Assembly: GCA_016209205.1 (NCBI GenBank)
Contig: JACQWQ010000197.1
Span: 1 to 64,000, forward strand
Direction of reading: 5' to 3'
Length of the DNA stretch: 64,000 nucleotides
DNA from: Chloroflexota bacterium
Lineage (GTDB): Bacteria; Chloroflexota; Anaerolineae; UBA4142; SHND01
In this document: one piece after another, positions 16,693-47,167 of the stretch
Layout of the letters: each line of letters begins with the position of its first letter
Numbering within the stretch: the stretch's first letter is position 1
Made by a program: the position numbers and the translations under genes
The notes under the pieces: generated by a model
The model's database searches: none
Told to the model about the DNA's origin: nothing
The model's input: only the letters and a program-made list of their open reading frames with translations

Positions 16693-18318
16693 TCAAGGAC
16701 GCAGCGCGCGGCGCAACAATTTTCCCGCCGCATTGCGCGGCAGCGCCGCGACGAAATGAATCCGCGTCGGTATTTTGTAACGCGCCAACCGCGCGGTGCA
16801 GTGTTGCATCAAATCGTCCGCCGTCACCGGCGCCTCCTTTTCTATTTGCACGAACGCGACGGGCACACGTCCCCAGCGCGCGTCGGGCGCGCCAATCACA
16901 CCCGCGTCCAACACCGCCGGATGCGTGCGCAGCGCGGCTTCGATTTCCGCCGGATACACATTCTCGCCGCCAGAAATAAACAAATCGTCGCGGCGGTCGA
17001 GCACGTACAAATACCCGTCCGCGTCCACGTACCCCACATCGCCCGTGTGCAGCCAACCGTCATGCAGCACGCGCGCCGTTTCTTCCGGCTGGTCTACATA
17101 GCCCGCCATCACCGTCGGTCCGCGAATCACGATTTCCCCCGCCTGTCCGTGCTCCATTTCGATTCCGTCGTTTTCAATCCGCAGTTCCGTTCCAAACAAC
17201 GGCTTGCCCGCCGAACCGATTTTGCGCAAGGCGTCTTGCAGCGCGAGCGTGGCGACCTGTGACGCGGCTTCGGTCAAACCGTACGTCTGTACGACGGGCG
17301 CGCCGCGCCGCTGCGCCTCTTCCAGCAATGTGCGCGGCGCCGGACCGCCGCCGACCAACACCCCGCGCAGCGACGCGGGATACGGCTCATCGCCGCGCGC
17401 CTCGAACATGCGCTGCAGCATCGTGCTTACCACCGAAAGCATCGTCACGCCCTCGCGGTCAATCGCGCGATTCACTGCGGCGGCGTCGAACGATTCGTGA
17501 ACCAGCACCGTCATGCCATAAATCACGCCGCGCAAAAGAATCGCCAGCCCGCCGACGTGAAACAGCGGCAAACACGCGAGCCAACAATCGTCCTCGCGCA
17601 AACCCAAATTCAACGCCGACGCGATGGCGCTCCACCAGTGATTGCCGTACGTCAACACCGCGCCTTTGGGCTGACCGGATGTGCCGGACGTGTAGAGGAT
17701 GCTGTGAGGTACGTCGAGTTCGAAAGAGAGAGGGGAAATCGAGGACGGAGGACTGAGGACGGAGGACTGAGGATTGAGGACGGAGGACGGAGGATTGAGG
17801 ACGGAGGACGGAGGATTGAGGACGGAGGACTGAGGACGGAGGACGGAGGACTGAGGACGGAGGACGGAGGGCTGAGGATTGAGGACGGAGGACTGAGGAC
17901 GGAGGACTAGCGACTGATCACTGATAACTGATAACTGATCACTGATCACTGATAACTGATCACTGATCACTGATAACTGATCACTGATCACTGATAACTG
18001 ATCACTGCACAACAGAAATCGCGCGCGCACGTTTTCCAATTGCCAATGAATTTCGTGCGGCGTCAAGCGCGTGTTGATGGGGACGAGAATCGCGCCGAGA
18101 CGCGCGAGCGCGTGGACACAAAACACGAACGGCGCGCCGTTGTGCATCAACACAGCCACGCGTGCGCCGCGCTGTACGCCTTGCGCGTGCAAACTTTGCG
18201 CCAGCTGCGTTACCTGCGCGTCGAGTTCGCGAAACGTCCACCGCGCGTCGCCCACAATCAACGCCGTACGTTCCGGCGACAATCGCGCGCGCTCGGCAAG
18301 CCAATCGGGAAAAGACAT
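16693..18318 (-). CDS. menE: o-Succinylbenzoate-CoA ligase, with a repeat-encoded insertion
   Basis: Activates o-succinylbenzoate with ATP and CoA in menaquinone synthesis. The adenylate-forming motifs are present: ILYTSGTSGQPKGAV (P-loop), QTYGLTEAASQ (A5), GWLHTGDVGYVD (A7-A8) and a C-terminal lysine in PRNAAGKLLRRA (A10). Between FLLCSD and FELDVPHS sits about 90 extra residues made of SDQLSVI and SSVL(R/N)P(Q/P) heptapeptides, encoded by 38 perfect DNA heptamers (17741-18006). The rest has normal length. The ATG at 18318 (MSFPDWLAER) is chosen; the longer frame reads into repeat DNA. Last gene of the men operon. Confidence 0.92.
   Translation of the reverse strand: MSFPDWLAERARLSPERTALIVGDARWTFRELDAQVTQLAQSLHAQGVQRGARVAVLMHNGAPFVFCVHALARLGAILVPINTRLTPHEIHWQLENVRARFLLCSDQLSVISDQLSVISDQLSVISDQLSVISDQSLVLRPQSSVLNPQPSVLRPQSSVLRPQSSVLNPPSSVLNPPSSVLNPQSSVLSPPSSISPLSFELDVPHSILYTSGTSGQPKGAVLTYGNHWWSAIASALNLGLREDDCWLACLPLFHVGGLAILLRGVIYGMTVLVHESFDAAAVNRAIDREGVTMLSVVSTMLQRMFEARGDEPYPASLRGVLVGGGPAPRTLLEEAQRRGAPVVQTYGLTEAASQVATLALQDALRKIGSAGKPLFGTELRIENDGIEMEHGQAGEIVIRGPTVMAGYVDQPEETARVLHDGWLHTGDVGYVDADGYLYVLDRRDDLFISGGENVYPAEIEAALRTHPAVLDAGVIGAPDARWGRVPVAFVQIEKEAPVTADDLMQHCTARLARYKIPTRIHFVAALPRNAAGKLLRRALRP
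17741..18006. repeat. 38-unit heptanucleotide array inside menE
   Basis: Read on the plus strand: 24 units of GAGGAC(G/T) variants (17741-17908), one AGCGACT, then 13 units of GAT(C/A)ACT (17916-18006), all in perfect 7-base phase. Seven bases are not a multiple of three, so gain or loss of one or two units would shift the menE frame; three units would not. Confidence 0.95.
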
Positions 18319-18648
18319 CGTGCCATGGATCCACGAATTACACGAATCTCCACGAATGAGATTCCTCACTCCGTTCGGAATGACATGATTCGCGTTATTC
18401 GTGTAATTCGTGGATCGCCCTGTTTACCCATCTACCTATTTACCTGCCTACCCGCACTCTTTACGGCAAGCGCGGAAATTTCCCAAGTGTAGTGACGAAT
18501 TCATTCGTCAAGGCAAGCGCGGAAATTTCCCAAGTGTAGTGACGAATTCATTCGTCAAGGCAAGCGCGGAAATTTTCCAAGCGTAGTGACGAATTCATTC
18601 GTCAAGGCAAGCGCGGAAATTTTCCAAGCGTAGTGACGAATTCATTCG
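18319..18648. repeat. 47-bp tandem array and inverted repeat between menB and menE
   Basis: Five copies of GGCAAGCGCGGAAATT start at 18465, 18512, 18559, 18606 and 18653, exactly 47 bases apart; the last belongs to menB. Each unit contains the final menB codons, its stop and the palindrome GACGAATTCATTCGTC. Next to menE a second inverted repeat (GATCCACGAATTACACGAAT, about 18326-18345, against 18397-18416) frames a half GTCATTCCGA element. No gene here. Confidence 0.93.
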
Positions 18649-19473
18649 TCAAGGCAAGCGCGGAAATTTTCCAAAATCCGGTTTCCGTTTTTCCAAAAAC
18701 GCGTTCTTGCCTTCCTGCGCTTCTTCGCTCAAATAATACAACAGCGTCGCGTCGCCCGCGAGCTGCTGCAAGCCCGCCAGTCCGTCCGTATCCGCATTGA
18801 ACGCGGCTTTGAGCATACGAATCGCCAGCGGACTTTTTTCCAAAATCTCGCGCGCCCACTGCACGCCTTCGTCCTCCAACTTTTCGAGCGGCACGACGGT
18901 GTTGACCAATCCCATTTCAAGCGCCTGCTGCGCGTCGTATTGACGACACAGGTACCAAATCTCGCGCGCCTTTTTGTGACCCACGATGCGCGCCAAATAC
19001 CCCGCGCCGTAGCCGCCGTCAAAACTGCCGACCTTGGGTCCCGTTTGTCCGAAACGCGCGTTCTCGGCGGCAATCGTCAAATCGCAAACGATGTGTAAAA
19101 CGTGCCCGCCGCCAATGGCGTAGCCCGCGACCAGCGCGATCACCGGCTTGGGCATCAGGCGAATCAGCCGCTGCAATTCGAGCACGTTCAAACGCGGCAC
19201 GCCGTCCGCGCCGACATAGCCGCCCTTGCCACGCACGCTTTGATCGCCGCCGGAGCAAAACGCTTCGCCGCCCGCGCCGGTGAACAGCACCACGCCAACG
19301 CTAGCGTCTTCGTGCGCGTGCTTGAACGCGTCGAGCATTTCATGTACGGTCAGTGGACGAAACGCGTTGCGCACTTCCGGACGATTGATCGTAATTTTGG
19401 CAATCGCTTCGCCGTCCGCGTGCTCATACAAAATATCCGTGTACTGTTTTACGGGAATCCATTGGATGGGCAT
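18649..19473 (-). CDS. menB: 1,4-Dihydroxy-2-naphthoyl-CoA synthase
   Basis: Closes the second ring: o-succinylbenzoyl-CoA to DHNA-CoA. A crotonase-fold protein of 274 residues with [15 protein letters not shown] (oxyanion hole), [36 protein letters not shown] and the closing [14 protein letters not shown] typical of MenB. Length and motifs are those of the family. The last six codons and stop are repeated four more times downstream in a 47-bp array, so the 3' end seeded a tandem duplication. ATG at 19473. Confidence 0.95.
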
Positions 19474-19487
19474 TGATATTTCCTTTC

Positions 19488-19585
19488 AGTAATCAGTGAT
19501 CAGTCATCGGTGATCAGTCATCGGTGATCAGTCATCAGTCATCAGTAATCAGTGACCAGTGACCAGTGATCAGTCCTCAGTCCTT
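19488..19585. repeat. 14-unit heptanucleotide array at the menH 3' end
   Basis: Units of AGT(A/C/G)A(T/C)C type in strict 7-base phase. The right half encodes the last residues of MenH (HWSLVTDY) and the left half fills the menH-menB gap. Confidence 0.9.
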
Positions 19586-20378
19586 TTAACACAATTTTCT
19601 CAAATTCCATCGGTCGTTCCACATGCGCCGCGTGTCCCGCGTCGGCGATGGAAACGTGTCGCGCATTCGGCATGATTTCTGACATTTGGCGCGCGATGTT
19701 GGTAAATTTTTCGTCGAGCGCGCCAGTGATGAGCAGCGTGCGCGTGTGGATTTGCGGTAGGCGTTCCCACAACGATTCTTGCGCGCCCGTGCCCATGCCG
19801 CGCAAACTGTTTGCCAAACCGCGCGGGTTGTTTTGCAAACGCTGCGCGTGCAGCGCGTCGCGCGTCGCTTGCGACAAACGCGCTTGTGTCGCAAACAACG
19901 GCCGTTGTTCCCAATACGCGACGAACGCGGCAATCCCCTCGCGCTCGATGCGTTCCGCCAATACTTGATCGCTTGCGATTCGCGCCGCGCGTTCCGCCGC
20001 GTCCGCGATACCGGGTGACGCACTCTCCAAAATCAATGTCTCGATGCGTTCGGGATATTTGTGCGCAAAATGCAACGCGACGCGTCCACCCATCGAATAG
20101 CCGAGCAAGTGTACGCGCTGCAAATTTAATTTGTCAAAACACGCGCGCAAATCGTCCACGCCGCGCGTCATGCGATACCGTTCCGCGTCGGCAGGCGCAT
20201 CCGACGCGCCGTGTCCCAACAAATCAATCGCCGCCGTTTGAAAGTGTCTGTCGAACACCGCGCGGTGCGTCGTCCAATTCGCCGCGCTGCCGGTAAAGCC
20301 GTGCAGTAAAACAAGCGGCGCACCCGCGCCGCTTGTGATTACGTTCAATTCGATGTCGTTGATACGTATGCGTGTCAT
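19542..20378 (-). CDS. menH: SHCHC synthase (alpha/beta hydrolase fold)
   Basis: Removes pyruvate from SEPHCHC to give SHCHC. 278 residues with LVLLHGFTGSAANW (oxyanion), the nucleophile elbow LLGYSMGGRVALH and a late histidine in DAGHAAHVERP, as in MenH. The ATG at 20378 overlaps the menD stop (ATGA) and so is preferred to the start ten codons upstream. The C-terminal tail GLRTDHWSLVTDY is encoded by a heptamer array, so the original end was probably a few residues earlier. Confidence 0.9.
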   Translation of the reverse strand: MTRIRINDIELNVITSGAGAPLVLLHGFTGSAANWTTHRAVFDRHFQTAAIDLLGHGASDAPADAERYRMTRGVDDLRACFDKLNLQRVHLLGYSMGGRVALHFAHKYPERIETLILESASPGIADAAERAARIASDQVLAERIEREGIAAFVAYWEQRPLFATQARLSQATRDALHAQRLQNNPRGLANSLRGMGTGAQESLWERLPQIHTRTLLITGALDEKFTNIARQMSEIMPNARHVSIADAGHAAHVERPMEFEKIVLKGLRTDHWSLVTDY

Positions 20379-22165
20379 AGCATCAATAGGACTCTGACCA
20401 CTTTGCATTTAGTGTGCGCAGGCACACTTGGCGTAGTCGTTGCCGCGAATTCTATTCGCCTGATGGCGCTCCGCACCTGCCAGTGCATCGTCACATTCCG
20501 CGCGCGGTCGGTTCGTACCTGAACAATGTGCAAACCGTCGGATGCGATGCTCGTTTGCACCGCCGCGCGAAACTCCGCCCACGTTTGCGGTTCATGCCAA
20601 ACCGCGTCGTACATTTTCGCCGCATGCGCGGCTTGCGGCAAAAACGAAAAAATTCCCCCGCCGTCGTTATGAATCAAAACAATCGTCGCGTGCAAGCGAT
20701 GGCGTTTCGCGGCAAACAAACCGTTCAGGTCGTGATAAAACGCGAGGTCGCCAATCACCAACACCAACGGTCCCGCGCTCACCGCCCCCGCGCCCAACGC
20801 GCTCGACACCACGCCGTCAATCCCGTTCGCGCCGCGATTCGCCAGAAAACAAATCTCGTGCGCATTGCTTGGAAAAAACGTATCCAAGTCGCGCACGGGC
20901 ATACTGCTGCTCGCAAACAACGTCGCGTGTGCGGGCAATAAATCCGCCAACTCGCGCAGCACGCGTCCTTCAAACATTTCGTCGAATGCCGCGAGTTGTT
21001 CCGTGATGGCGCGCTGCGTCCGCGCGTTCGCGTCGCGCCACGTCGCAAGCCACGCGGAGGTTTCATTGCGCGGCGCAAGCGAACGCAGCAGCGCATCGGC
21101 AAACGCGCGCGCGTCGGCGTGGATGATATGTGCGGCGAGGCGCGTCGGGTCGTTCCAGCCGCCCGCGTCAATCAAAATCTGCTGCGCCTGCGGATACCGT
21201 TGTAAAAATTGCAGCACGGGTTTCGAGGTCGGCAGCGCGCCAAAGCGCAACACGATTTCCGGTTCCAGTCGCTCCACAATTTTCGCGTCGCGCAAAAACG
21301 CGTCATAGCTGTCCATCACATTCGCGCGTGAATGGCTGCCGCAGCGCGCGAGGGAAAGCGGGTCCGCCAACAGCGGATAACCGAGCGCGTCACTCACGGC
21401 GGCAATCGCGGCAGGTTCGTCGGGATGCGACTGGGGTCCGGCAATGACCAGTCCGCGTTCGACGTTTTGCCATTGCTGCGCGAGCGCGGCAATTTGCGTC
21501 GCGTCCGGCACGCGCACACTCGGCGTTATGCGCGCGAACGGCTGACCATTTTCGCGCCCTTCAAACGCGTCGCGTTCGCGCGCGTCGTATTCCATTTGCG
21601 CGGGTTCGGGAATCAACGGCTCGCGAAAAGGAAAATTCAAATGGACTGCGCCTGCGGGCGCGTTCGTCGCTGCCTCCACCGCGCGACACGCGATGGTGCG
21701 CGCATATCGCAGCAAGTCGGCGGTCGCTTCGGGCAGCGCCACTTCGACGAACCATTTCGCGTGGTCGCCGAACAATTTGATTTGGTCAATCGTCTGCGGC
21801 GCGCCGCTGTCGCGCAGTTCCGGCGGACGGTCGGCCGTCAATACGATCAGCGGGACGCGCGCGTAATGCGCTTCGATGATGGCGGGGAAAAAATTTGCGG
21901 CGGCAGTGCCGGAGGTACAGAGCAGCGCGGCGGGTACACCGGACGCTTTGCCGATGCCGAGCGCGAAAAACGCGGCGGAGCGTTCGTCGAGGTGCTGCCA
22001 CAGTTTGAAATCGGCGTGGGCGGCAAAACGCAGCGCGAGCGGAGTGGAACGCGAGCCGGGGCAAAAGACGAGCTGCTTGACGCCCGCGCGGGACAATTCG
22101 TCCACGAAAGCGTTCAGAAAAAAATACGCGGATTGCGGAACAGAGTAGGGGCGAAGCATTTGCAT
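20375..22165 (-). CDS. menD: SEPHCHC synthase, thiamine diphosphate enzyme
   Basis: Joins isochorismate and 2-oxoglutarate. 596 residues. Motifs: LVFCPGSRSTPLALRF near the start, TSGTAAANFFPAIIEA, and the ThDP-binding block GDLAFYHDLNGLFAA followed by HNDGGGIFSFLP. AGGGAGAG stands close before the ATG at 22165. The last 35-40 residues (after VTMHWQVRS) leave the family and are encoded by dispersed repeat DNA (GCGAATAGAATTCGCGGCAA), so the reading frame has been extended. The stop overlaps menH. Confidence 0.94.
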   Translation of the reverse strand: MQMLRPYSVPQSAYFFLNAFVDELSRAGVKQLVFCPGSRSTPLALRFAAHADFKLWQHLDERSAAFFALGIGKASGVPAALLCTSGTAAANFFPAIIEAHYARVPLIVLTADRPPELRDSGAPQTIDQIKLFGDHAKWFVEVALPEATADLLRYARTIACRAVEAATNAPAGAVHLNFPFREPLIPEPAQMEYDARERDAFEGRENGQPFARITPSVRVPDATQIAALAQQWQNVERGLVIAGPQSHPDEPAAIAAVSDALGYPLLADPLSLARCGSHSRANVMDSYDAFLRDAKIVERLEPEIVLRFGALPTSKPVLQFLQRYPQAQQILIDAGGWNDPTRLAAHIIHADARAFADALLRSLAPRNETSAWLATWRDANARTQRAITEQLAAFDEMFEGRVLRELADLLPAHATLFASSSMPVRDLDTFFPSNAHEICFLANRGANGIDGVVSSALGAGAVSAGPLVLVIGDLAFYHDLNGLFAAKRHRLHATIVLIHNDGGGIFSFLPQAAHAAKMYDAVWHEPQTWAEFRAAVQTSIASDGLHIVQVRTDRARNVTMHWQVRSAIRRIEFAATTTPSVPAHTKCKVVRVLLML

Positions 22166-22211
22166 ACACTCTCCCTCGAACAAAGCACGCGTTGGCGCAA
22201 ATGCTTCGCCC

Positions 22212-23684
22212 TTACCACAAAGCCGTGAGCATCGGCTTGAGTTTGAGCCGCGCTTCGGCGTACTCGCGTTTCGGGTCGGAATGCGCGACAATGCCGCAGC
22301 CCGCAAACAACGTCGCGGTGTCGTCGTGCACCAACGCGGAACGCAGCGCGACGACGAATTCGCCCTCACCGCACGCATTCATCCAACCGACCGGGCCCGC
22401 GTACCAACCGCGATCCAAACGTTCGTGCGCGCGAATAAATTCCAGCGCGACCGGCAGCGGGCGACCACCCACCGCAGGCGTCGGGTGCAAGCGCTCGACC
22501 AAATCCAACACCGTATGACCATTTGCCAGGCGTCCCGTAATCGGCGTGGACAAATGTTGAATGTTGCCGAGTTTGAGCAAGCCCGGCTGCGTGGGAATTT
22601 CCAACGGCGCGCACAATTCACTCAACGCTTCGACAATCGCCTGCACCACGAAAGCATGTTCCGCGCGATCTTTTTCGCTCTGCAAAAGGGCTTGCCCCAA
22701 ACGTTCGTCTTCGGCGGCGCCCTTACCGCGCGCAATCGAACCGGCGAGACTCATGGTCTTGACCTCGCCCGCGCGCAGCTGCACCAAACGTTCCGGCGTC
22801 GCGCCGAGAAAACACTGGTCGCCGCGCGCAATGGCAAACAGCGTACAGTCCGCGTAATTTTTCGTCAGCGTGCGCAGCGCGTGCGCGGTGTCGAACGGCG
22901 CGGACGCGCGCAATTGCGCGGCGCGCGCCAACACGACCTTGTCCATTTCCCCGCGTTGAATCGCTTCGACCGCGCGCGCCACATCGCGCTGCCATTCCGC
23001 CGCGGGGCGCAGATCGTGCGCGGCAAGCTGCGCGTGGTGCCCGTTCGACGCGCTGCGCGTGACCTTGACCGCGCGCGGCAATTGCGCCGCGCGGGCGTCC
23101 AACTGTTCCAGCAATTCATCCGCATCGCTGGCTGCGCTGACCAAGGCGTTGCGGGTGAGCCAACTGGCGGTGGGTGTTTGGGTGAAAACAAGTTCGGGCA
23201 AAATCATGCGCCCGTGTGGAAAGCCGCGCCACAATTCCGTCGTGGGCGATTGCGGATCAAAGGCAAAGCCGCCGAGCAATCGCGGGCCCGCCTCTGGAAA
23301 TTCGGACGGCTTTGTGATTCGCACATCCTCACGCGAGGGTCGAGCGACGTCAGCGTGAGGATGTGCGACAACGGCATCTTGCAGCAAGGTTCGCCACTGT
23401 GCGGCAGTTTCTTGAAAACGCTGCGGACCGGAGGTTTCGATAATGTGCGCCGCGCCGACGCCGAGGTGCGTTCGCCCGCGCGCGGGCTGTGACCAAAAAT
23501 AGCGTTCGGAGGTAAAGACGTGCGCCGCTTGATACAACGCGATCAGGTCGAGCGCATCCAGCTGCTCACTGACACTGACCAATACGGCGCGCGCCGTTTG
23601 ACGCGCGCGTAAAATGCCTTCCCGCAAGGGCTGCGCGCGGTGCAGCGTTTGCGGGGGTGCCGAAACAAATTCCAATTGCATCAT
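22212..23684 (-). CDS. menF: Isochorismate synthase, with a palindrome-encoded insertion
   Basis: Chorismate to isochorismate, first step of the pathway. 490 residues. The chorismate-binding domain shows KVVLARAAQL, FLGATPERLV, SLAGSIARGKG, HLSTPITGRL and LVERLHPTPAVGG, then WYAGPVGWMN. In the variable N-terminal half the segment HADVARPSREDVRI is encoded by a perfect palindrome (23319-23368) that looks inserted in frame. First gene of the men operon; the two consecutive ATGs at 23684/23681 are both possible starts. Confidence 0.94.
   Translation of the reverse strand: MMQLEFVSAPPQTLHRAQPLREGILRARQTARAVLVSVSEQLDALDLIALYQAAHVFTSERYFWSQPARGRTHLGVGAAHIIETSGPQRFQETAAQWRTLLQDAVVAHPHADVARPSREDVRITKPSEFPEAGPRLLGGFAFDPQSPTTELWRGFPHGRMILPELVFTQTPTASWLTRNALVSAASDADELLEQLDARAAQLPRAVKVTRSASNGHHAQLAAHDLRPAAEWQRDVARAVEAIQRGEMDKVVLARAAQLRASAPFDTAHALRTLTKNYADCTLFAIARGDQCFLGATPERLVQLRAGEVKTMSLAGSIARGKGAAEDERLGQALLQSEKDRAEHAFVVQAIVEALSELCAPLEIPTQPGLLKLGNIQHLSTPITGRLANGHTVLDLVERLHPTPAVGGRPLPVALEFIRAHERLDRGWYAGPVGWMNACGEGEFVVALRSALVHDDTATLFAGCGIVAHSDPKREYAEARLKLKPMLTALW
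23319..23368. repeat. Palindromic element inside menF
   Basis: Perfect 15-base arms TCGCACATCCTCACG and CGTGAGGATGTGCGA around a 20-base loop, within the coding sequence and without breaking the frame. Confidence 0.9.
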
Positions 23685-26520: not shown

Positions 26521-27268
26521 GGGGAGAACATTATATTTCGCGCGGGGCGGGTGTCAACAATCATCCGTTGTTTGGAAAACTACGGCAAAAGAAAGGAGGA
26601 AAGAAACCACAGAAGGAAAAAGCGGCAAAAGGGAGGAAAGAAACCAAAGAAGGAAAAAGCGATGTACGTTTCAAGAAACAGTACCACAAGCATTCTTTGT
26701 CATACTTTAGAGCGGATTCCGAATTGATTGGTGGTGTCAGCGTAGGGGCGACGGCTTGTCCTCGCCCATTCCAGTTGGGCAACCACAAGGGATTGCCCCT
26801 ACCATCCCACAAACGAATCAGGAATTCGCTCTAGGCATTCTTTTGCCGATGAAATTCCATTCTTCGGTAGCTGCGACGCCAATTTGCCCCCACCGCGAGC
26901 TGTGGTAAAATCTACCGCACTGAGGTTGATAATGTTCTTGTGCTCGTATTTTGATTCGTCTTTGATGATGATGCCTGCGGCGCACCGAAATCGCGGCGAC
27001 GCGTACCGAGTGTAGTTTACTCGACGCGTCTGCCATCGGTGCGCCTTTTGCCGCTTGCTCGGAAATTCGTCCGACAGCGGCGTTTTTATTTCTGTTTGCG
27101 AATCGCGTATCGCGTATCGCAAATCGCGTCGTGTATCACGTTTGACGTTTCACGCTTCACGTTTGACGTTTGAGGTTTCACGTTTCACGTATTTTACTAT
27201 CGCACTATCGCACTATCTCACCATCGCACTATCTCACTATTGCACTATTGCACTACGGAGTTTTTACC
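26521..27268. repeat. 748-bp repeat-filled intergenic region between menA and metG
   Basis: From left: a 40-base A/G-rich tandem pair (CGGCAAAAG..., 26582 and 26623); a MITE-like element (26708-26833); a long hairpin with arms GGCGCACCGA / TCGGTGCGCC (about 26984-27048); twelve 7-base units such as TTTCACG and TTTGACG (27106-27189); and seven 8-base units ACTATCGC (27196-27251) that run up to the metG ribosome binding site. No gene is convincing. Confidence 0.8.
26708..26833. mobile_element. MITE-like element with terminal inverted repeats and TA flanks
   Basis: Ends TAGAGCGGATTCCGAATTG and its imperfect complement CAGGAATTCGCTCTA lie 126 bases apart with TA at both borders. Inside is the widespread palindrome GTAGGGGCGACGGC...GATTGCCCCTAC, which also occurs at 47016-47167. 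Too short to encode a transposase. Confidence 0.65.
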
Positions 27269-31361: not shown

Positions 31362-32891
31362 TTAGCGTGTGCGCGTCCAATCTACAGTAATGTGACAACC
31401 CTGCACGTTCCCGCCGGGATAATCTACGTCCAAGATCGCGCTCGCGTGGCTGCCAAAATCATCCACGACGACGAGATGAAACACGCCCTTGTCCGAGCCT
31501 AACACAATTTCGTATTCACCTGCCGAATCGGTGCGCGCGTAGGGCGGCAAATATCCGAAATCGTTGTAAATTTTCACGCCCACGTTTTGCAATGGCTTGC
31601 CTTGCGCGTCTTGGACCGCACCTTTGATGTTACCCGTGCCTTTGCACTGCGCGTTCTGCCGCACGCGCACACGTGGTGTGTACACGATGCCTTTCACGGA
31701 AACCACGGGCAGCGGCGTCGCATAAGGATTGGGTGTGACCGCAATGGGCAAAGCCGTCGCGCCGCCTTCGAGCGTCGGCGTCGCAGTTGGCGTAGGATTG
31801 AGAATCGCTTGCTTGCAGCTGGCGTTCGCCGCCGCGGCTTGGGCTTGCACGCCTGCATCCGCGCCCAACGCAACCGCCGCGTTCAATTCGCGCGCGGCAA
31901 TGCAGAACGCGCCTTGCCTGTTCGCAAAATCGCCATAGCCGATGTGTGCGTCGCGCAGTTTTATTTTCACGTCCGCGAAATTCGGATCGCGCGCATACAA
32001 TTCTTGAAACGTCAAGACCGCGTTCGCCCAATCCGTGCCCATCGCCTGTACGCCGTGAAAGTACAGTAAAGCGCGGTCGCGCAGCGTGCGCGCCTCGGCG
32101 TGATTCGGGTCAACCGCCAACGCGGCATCAAAACGCCGTCGCGCCAGGTCTACGTCATTGGCAGTCAGCGCCAGTTTGCCCGCATTGACGTACGCAGTGA
32201 CCAGCAGCGCGTTGACCTCTGCCGAACGATAATCGCTTTTGACGCGGCGTAGTTCTTCGAGCAAGTCCACCGCGCCGTTCCAATCCTGACGCGCCCGCGC
32301 CGCTTGTGCGCCGTCGTACAACTGTTTCGCAATCGCCACGTCTTGCGGCTCGATCTGATTTTTGACGAGTCGCGCTGCCTTGAGCTGCTCCAGCTTTTGC
32401 CGCGCCGGTTGATAATCGGGGCGATATTGCAGCGCCAGATTCAACTCGGCAATCGCCAATTCGTCGTACGTTTCCGATTCGTACGCGAGCGCGCGTTGGA
32501 AATGTTCGAGCGCGGCGCGTTCGACAAATTGTTGACGGTCGCGATTGCCGAAATACACGCCGAGCGTAAAGGGAATCGTGAACGCGAGCGCGACGCCGAC
32601 AATTGCGAGCACGACGAACCACGCGAAAAAATGATTGCGCACGACCGACGGCGCGGCGGGGAAATGGAAGGCGTGCGGCGTCGCCGCGGCAATCGTCGCG
32701 CTGGGCGCGTACTCGTACGGCGCTTGCGCCGGTTCGCGCACCGGTTTTGGGTCGGGAAGCGGAACGGGGGGAGGGTGGCGGGGGGGGGGCTTGCCGGACG
32801 CCGACGACAGCGCGCGGTCGCGCCCACGCGGCGGCAGCGGTTTTTGACGCGGCGTAATCGGTTCGGGCAAATCAGACGGTGCGGAAGACAT
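31362..32891 (-). CDS. Membrane-anchored TPR protein with carboxypeptidase-regulatory-like end
   Basis: About 509 residues. A Pro-rich cytoplasmic head (KPLPPRGRDR, PPPVPLPDPKP), one membrane span near 95-115 (FFAWFVVLAIVGVALAF), then TPR-like helices (AIAELNLALQYRPDYQPA, DLARRRFDAALAVDPNHAEA), a Thr/Pro linker, and a C-terminal beta domain (GAVQDAQGKPLQNVGVKIY) like carboxypeptidase-regulatory modules. The ATG at 32891 is preferred to a TTG two codons earlier. A G10 run (32780-32789) lies in the Pro-rich head. Confidence 0.75.
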   Translation of the reverse strand: MSSAPSDLPEPITPRQKPLPPRGRDRALSSASGKPPPRHPPPVPLPDPKPVREPAQAPYEYAPSATIAAATPHAFHFPAAPSVVRNHFFAWFVVLAIVGVALAFTIPFTLGVYFGNRDRQQFVERAALEHFQRALAYESETYDELAIAELNLALQYRPDYQPARQKLEQLKAARLVKNQIEPQDVAIAKQLYDGAQAARARQDWNGAVDLLEELRRVKSDYRSAEVNALLVTAYVNAGKLALTANDVDLARRRFDAALAVDPNHAEARTLRDRALLYFHGVQAMGTDWANAVLTFQELYARDPNFADVKIKLRDAHIGYGDFANRQGAFCIAARELNAAVALGADAGVQAQAAAANASCKQAILNPTPTATPTLEGGATALPIAVTPNPYATPLPVVSVKGIVYTPRVRVRQNAQCKGTGNIKGAVQDAQGKPLQNVGVKIYNDFGYLPPYARTDSAGEYEIVLGSDKGVFHLVVVDDFGSHASAILDVDYPGGNVQGCHITVDWTRTR

Positions 32892-32894
32892 GGT

Positions 32895-33013
32895 CAATGG
32901 TCAATGCACAATGGTCAATGCACAATGCACAATGTCCAAACTCCAATCTCTAATTTCCAACTTCCAACTTCTAACTTCCAATTTCCAATTTCTAATTTCT
33001 AACTTCCAATATC
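32895..33013. repeat. 17-unit heptanucleotide array between two genes
   Basis: Units CAATGGT/CAATGCA (six) pass into CAACTTC/TAATTTC types, all in strict 7-base phase. The right end overlaps the last seven codons of the DUF5107 gene, the left end touches the start region of the TPR gene. Confidence 0.9.
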
Positions 33014-34641: not shown

Positions 34642-34902
34642 CGCAAAGGATAGGTTGGAGCGACCGCCGCATTATATCCCGTTTGCGCCGTGCGCGCCAA
34701 AAGCGAGAACGAATGAGGCGATGCAGTTCATCGCACGTTACTACGTTTTCCCCGCGCCCCGTGCGAACGAATGAGGCGATGCAGGCGATGGGTGCGAGGT
34801 AGGCGATGTGCGATGTATTTCCATCGCCTACCTCGTACATCGCCTACCTCGTACATCACACGTTACTACGATGACTGATGACTGATGACTGGCAACTGCA
34901 TA
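34642..34902. repeat. Dispersed repeats upstream of the DUF5107 gene
   Basis: GCGATGCAGTTCATCGCACG-like units, GTAGGCGATGTGCGATG against CATCGCCTACCTCG, GTTACTACG ends, and four GATGACT-type heptamers at 34870-34897. No gene seen. Confidence 0.75.
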
Positions 34903-47015: not shown

Positions 47016-47167
47016 ATGGTAGGGGCAATCCCTTGTGGTTGCCCCATCCCTTGTGGTTGCCCCATCCCTTGTGGTTGCCCCATCCCTTGTGGTTGCCCCA
47101 TCCCTTGTGGTTGCCCCATCCCTTGTGGTTGCCCCACCGTATTGGGCGAGGACAAGCCGTCGCCCCT
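47016..47167. repeat. Palindromic element with six tandem copies of a 20-bp core
   Basis: GTAGGGGCAATCCCTTGTGGTTGCCCC at the left and GGGCGAGGACAAGCCGTCGCCCCTAC at the right form the two halves of the element also seen inside the MITE at 26708-26833. Here the core CCTTGTGGTTGCCCCATC is repeated six times, about 20 bases per unit, instead of once. Confidence 0.92.

Follow-up and report, generated by a model that had tools for sequence, protein, structure and literature searches.

Short tandem repeats of constant unit length have been described from several bacterial groups, and heptamer repeats are over-represented in bacteria, where they have hardly been studied (PMC4692102). TAACTGA direct repeats occur in Beggiatoaceae, Cyanobacteria, and Bacteroidetes (MacGregor 2015, PMC4679880). 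In a Beggiatoa genome most of them are placed directly before start codons, and those that fall in proteins are mostly at the ends; in reverse orientation, TAACTGA repeats encode LSVISYQ heptads in some ORFs (PMC4679880). The G-rich heptamers of Xanthomonas and Nostoc are dispersed and depleted in coding regions, with one G-quadruplex-forming motif per group (PMC4692102), and Bacillus has tandem repeats of constant length and variable sequence, with a unit of 52 or 20–21 nt (Subirana and Messeguer 2021, PMC8161180). A heptanucleotide repeat can also control a gene. The phase-variable neuO of E. coli K1 carries repeats in its 5′ region, gives a full-length product if the number of repeats is a multiple of three, and is OFF in 65.6% of 64 genomes (PMC13001214).

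The window analyzed here (64,000 nucleotides of a Chloroflexota draft genome) contains a heptamer array inside menE. Like the TAACTGA repeats (PMC4679880), the arrays of this genome are 7-bp tandem units that are dispersed and mostly intergenic (152 of 253). In part of the menE array, CAGTGAT is mixed with CAGTTAT, which is TAACTGA reverse-complemented and rotated. Unlike those repeats, the menE array is inside a gene, many other arrays are inside core enzymes, arrays at gene edges favor 3′ ends (58 vs. 13), and the units are far more varied. Dispersal and depletion from coding regions are shared with the Xanthomonas and Nostoc heptamers (PMC4692102), from which our arrays differ in having many unit types, most of them not G-rich. 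One dominant unit length with many unit sequences (here 69 types) recalls the Bacillus repeats (PMC8161180), except that the unit is 7, with fewer of 8, 9, and 10. As in neuO (PMC13001214), the menE array lies in coding sequence and its repeat number modulo 3 sets the frame; unlike neuO, it is imperfect, has a 21-bp superperiod, and sits deeper in its gene, and almost all arrays related to it keep the frame.

We think it probable (roughly 0.8) that the menE array is a tolerated, frame-filtered repeat invasion of a surface linker of MenE, neither a switch nor a purpose-built domain. The array is one member of a genome-wide family of dispersed 7-bp tandem repeats. It would have grown in a naturally variable linker that runs from the last N-terminal strand to the P-loop, and comparison with sister genomes shows that it has taken the place of most of the native linker. 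A structure model predicts that the surplus residues are disordered, lie at the surface, and do not disturb the enzyme core. Purifying selection would then retain only array changes in multiples of three units, a filter that would keep the frame open and give rise to a 21-bp superperiod; this last step is drawn from statistics over the genome's coding arrays and is extended by us to menE.

The array in menE and its gene cluster

MenE, o-succinylbenzoate–CoA ligase, is an enzyme of the vitamin K2 (menaquinone) pathway. The gene (16693–18318, minus strand) was identified by scores above the NCBIfam cut-offs (PRK03640, 614.6 bits vs. 556; TIGR01923, 447.1 bits vs. 330.15), by conserved columns, and by a fold match to structure 5x8f. 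Of the 87 columns with 98% or more conservation among 55 homologues, its product keeps 86, the exception being T231S in the P-loop; for the best segments of this product, the highest identities among named records are to Chloroflexota MAGs. The ORF is open up to a GTG at 18369, although the alignment makes the ATG at 18318 the likely start. The gene ends the run menD-menH-menB-menE, all on the minus strand and all with family scores above cut-off: menD (20375–22378, start uncertain; TIGR00173), menH (19542–20408; TIGR03695), and menB (18649–19473; TIGR01929/PRK07396). The P-loop (YTSGTSGQPK, 17665–17694, minus strand) follows shortly after the repeat-encoded linker in alignments. A sequence-only reading of this DNA had placed the array ahead of the P-loop in an otherwise complete menE, and both points hold.

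In the draft assembly the array occupies 17741–18006 on the minus strand and consists of 38 slots of 7 bases (24 + 1 + 13) with no break in phase. Block A (17741–17908, minus strand) has 24 units spelled GAGGAYK on the plus strand, that is, of the type GAGGA(C/T)(G/T), with one GAGGGCT among them, and encodes (Q/P)SSVL(R/N)P heptads. An odd unit, AGCGACT (17909–17915, minus strand), joins it to block B (17916–18006, minus strand), whose 13 GATMACT units (plus-strand spelling) read CAGTGAT (8 of 13) or CAGTTAT (5 of 13) on the coding strand and encode DQLSVIS heptads. CAGTTAT is the TAACTGA unit, from which block A differs. The slot count and phase are as the sequence-only reading gave them, but its word "perfect" is wrong, because Tandem Repeats Finder gives the heptamers a match of 83% in A and 90% in B, compared with 91% and 98% for 21-mers. 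The better period of the array is 21 bp: the longest exact tract is 81 bp at that period and 20 bp at a period of 7. A long exact heptamer tract, as looked for in slippage of the neuO type, is thus absent from the menE array, where 20 bp is the maximum. The menE array is far above chance level: 400 kb of Markov-simulated sequence contained 0 heptamer arrays.

Across the 89 array codons there is no stop in the menE frame. Block B is open in this frame only, the other two having stops, mostly every 21 nt, and CAGTTAT replaces CAGTGAT wherever the TGA of the unit would land in the menE frame. When array changes were simulated, gain or loss of one or two units cut the protein to 124–305 aa and a change of three units left it at full length, in agreement with the earlier remark that only three-unit steps keep the frame.

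Two further repeats were seen within the cluster. A heptamer array of the CAGTGAT family (19486–19584, minus strand), which has its canonical unit in common with block B, spans the 3′ end of menH and supplies the final residues and stop codon of that gene. A 47-bp unit, present about 4.5 times in tandem at 18465–18674, lies in the menB-menE gap and overlaps the last menB codons.

Heptamer arrays across the genome

The genome is a 6.38-Mb draft in 279 contigs (the menE array is on contig C126), of which we sampled 2.33 Mb. Arrays with a 7-bp unit dominate this sample (253), followed by units of 8 (76), 9 (31), 10 (13), and 6 (2), with 0–5 arrays for each remaining unit length within 5–12. It should be noted that the density of about 109 heptamer arrays per Mb is biased somewhat upward, because some contigs were chosen for holding CAGTGAT arrays; the comparison of genic with intergenic arrays is less affected by this choice. 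The 253 heptamer arrays comprise 69 distinct unit types, 68 of which fall in one single-mismatch network, vs. a mean of 20 and a maximum of 50 in random GC-matched sets. Defining the family by one unit was tried and dropped; CAGTGATCAGTGAT is absent from the five same-genus genomes.

Using our own codon-score gene caller, we placed 152 of the 253 arrays between genes, 71 at gene edges (58 at 3′ ends and 13 at 5′ ends), 8 near gene ends, and 22 in gene interiors. Intergenic placement is therefore the usual one here too, as the sequence-only reading had noted for the STRR-type heptamers of filamentous cyanobacteria, and only 22 arrays are interior even though 81% of the sampled DNA is coding. 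Octamer arrays, the second commonest, have 0 of 76 in gene interiors, compared with 22 of 253 for heptamers. By extrapolation there are about 60 coding arrays genome-wide, and an array inside a core enzyme, which the sequence-only reading had taken to be new, is not unique in this genome: carA, carB, a gene for a fadB-like two-domain protein, a RecQ-type helicase gene, and others have them. In these four, as in hosts of the xanthine-dehydrogenase large-subunit type and the CO-dehydrogenase-flavoprotein type (all recognized by Pfam domains), the array lies between annotated domains, touching the edge of one domain in the xanthine-dehydrogenase-type host; the arrays of a glycosyltransferase and of MenE fall within a domain. 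Unrelated proteins encoded by this genome also have heptads like those of MenE. Judged from match coordinates only, same-genus genomes are without the inserts of carA and the fadB-like gene, being shorter there by about 63 nt and 165–168 nt, respectively.

The loci of 29 relatives (115 kb) contain 16 heptamer arrays, and the units of 15 of these are absent from the sample of this genome. Of 199 genomes of the class, 32 have GTGAAAC triplets. Within the class, then, the unit length is common and the unit sequence mostly is not. A broader proposal, which we offer tentatively, is that a process making and dispersing specifically 7-bp (less often 8-bp) arrays is active in this Chloroflexota class with largely species-specific units, and that genes filter its products for three-unit changes, so that it would be a recurrent source of heptapeptide-repeat linkers in core enzymes.

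Frame preservation was tested by applying the same criteria to both flanks of each array. Of the intragenic arrays, 19 are in frame (17 interior and 2 near gene ends) and 2 are out of frame, with a binomial probability of about 1e-7 (hand calculation) if one in three were expected to be in frame; 6 more same-frame cases are adjacent genes. Fifteen out-of-frame candidates had been considered as split genes, and on reading the sequences we judged 13 of them to be neighboring genes (including menH/menB). The 2 that look like split genes are C116:10868 and C48:1377. At the former (G000:C116:10868-10895, L216), a heptamer array apparently divides a xanthine-dehydrogenase-type gene with a change of frame, so that the gene looks broken or OFF; at the latter (G000:C48:1377-1571, L242), a long heptamer array and a frame change seem to replace the expected P-loop region of an ATPase-like ORF.

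The period of the arrays points the same way. In arrays of at least 49 bp (just 13 coding ones, and 89 intergenic), the excess of identity at lag 21 over lags 14 and 28 has a median of 0.036 for coding and −0.002 for intergenic arrays. A Mann-Whitney test gives p = 0.0006 for this difference, and p = 0.0015 if menE is left out. The effect is stable for minimum lengths of 42–70, and coding arrays show no enrichment at lags 14 and 28. Some intergenic arrays do have a superperiod, and we considered that 21 bp might be common to all arrays; the comparison of coding with intergenic arrays rejects this. A 21-bp superperiod in coding arrays is as expected if a filter passes only three-unit changes, and we infer that such a filter causes both this superperiod and the frame bias.

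The MenE linker and the weighing of alternatives

Aligning MenE homologues, which the sequence-only reading had recommended, places the array in a linker of variable length. Measured from the last N-terminal strand to the P-loop in 56 sequences, this linker is 30–105 aa long (median 49), and the longest is that of the array-bearing MenE. Because the linkers of three same-genus orthologues have 52, 66, and 51 aa, compared with 105 here, the array is not a net insertion of 90 residues, as it had been called: it does cover 89 codons, but the net gain is only about 40–54 residues, with about 35 native linker residues displaced. None of the 55 homologues has the array-encoded segment; in sisters the same place is filled by different sequences. 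Sister G002 has its own small (TTCGTCA)n heptamer array in the same linker (L034:1490-1516), independent of the array at 17741–18006, and sister G004 has there the stretch NQKLVPSAVEGSK, which we take to resemble the product of another dispersed repeat. Because of this mini-array and this repeat-like stretch, the linker is, on sequence comparison, a recurrent target.

An AlphaFold2 model of MenE (56 sequences) has a mean pLDDT of 84, with values below 50 at residues 1–13 and 154–207 only. Its best fold match is B. subtilis MenE (5x8f; TM 0.80 by query, 0.91 by target), so the fold is predicted to be kept, with most of the array disordered. The sequence-only reading had asked whether the insertion is a surface loop; the first repeat residues, about 30 in number (122–151), are modeled with moderate to good confidence as a helix-strand-helix that replaces the native helix-strand-helix. 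This stretch of the array may therefore have a structural role and not be inert. Model and sequence together suggest that MenE tolerates the insert.

That the heptads are a selected regulatory or oligomerization element of MenE would accord with this helix-strand-helix and with 89 stop-free codons. We nevertheless consider it unlikely, given the low pLDDT of residues 154–207, the absence of the segment from 55 of 55 homologues, the different sequences in the linkers of sisters, and the similar heptads in unrelated proteins. Slippage by single heptamers, which had been proposed to switch the gene, would turn MenE and hence menaquinone synthesis on and off as in neuO (PMC13001214), an established heptamer switch; the truncation of MenE by one- or two-unit changes, with three-unit changes sparing it, is what such a switch would need. 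It is very improbable, however, for an array that lies about 300 nt into the gene of a core pathway enzyme, with an imperfect 7-bp tract (longest exact run 20 bp) and a frame-neutral 21-bp repeat as its best one (81 bp exact), in a genome where such arrays stand at 19 in frame vs. 2 out, when the freely switching neuO is near two thirds OFF (PMC13001214).

An assembly error in the length or position of the array deserves mention in a draft of 279 contigs, since short reads resolve long tandem arrays poorly. It is extremely unlikely here, as the array connects the two halves of a full MenE with the frame kept, and many other genes show the same pattern, with in-frame length differences from sisters. 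Tolerated invasion under a frame filter remains our preferred reading of the menE array.

Consequences and other repeats in the window

The genome allows one repeat family to be compared inside and outside genes, and the density of arrays (about 109 per Mb) and the number of coding arrays (about 60, extrapolated) allow selection to be tested directly. In the 21-bp superperiod of coding arrays one could read how selection has held repeat length to frame-preserving values, and the host proteins reveal where core enzymes accept added sequence. If the proposed combination of a 7-bp array process and a gene filter is true, core enzymes would have a recurrent supply of new heptapeptide-repeat linkers. 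Elsewhere in the window, more heptamer and octamer arrays with other units lie at 27098–27255, 32890–33010, and 34870–34891, and an exact 18-bp repeat is present in about six copies at 47028–47136.
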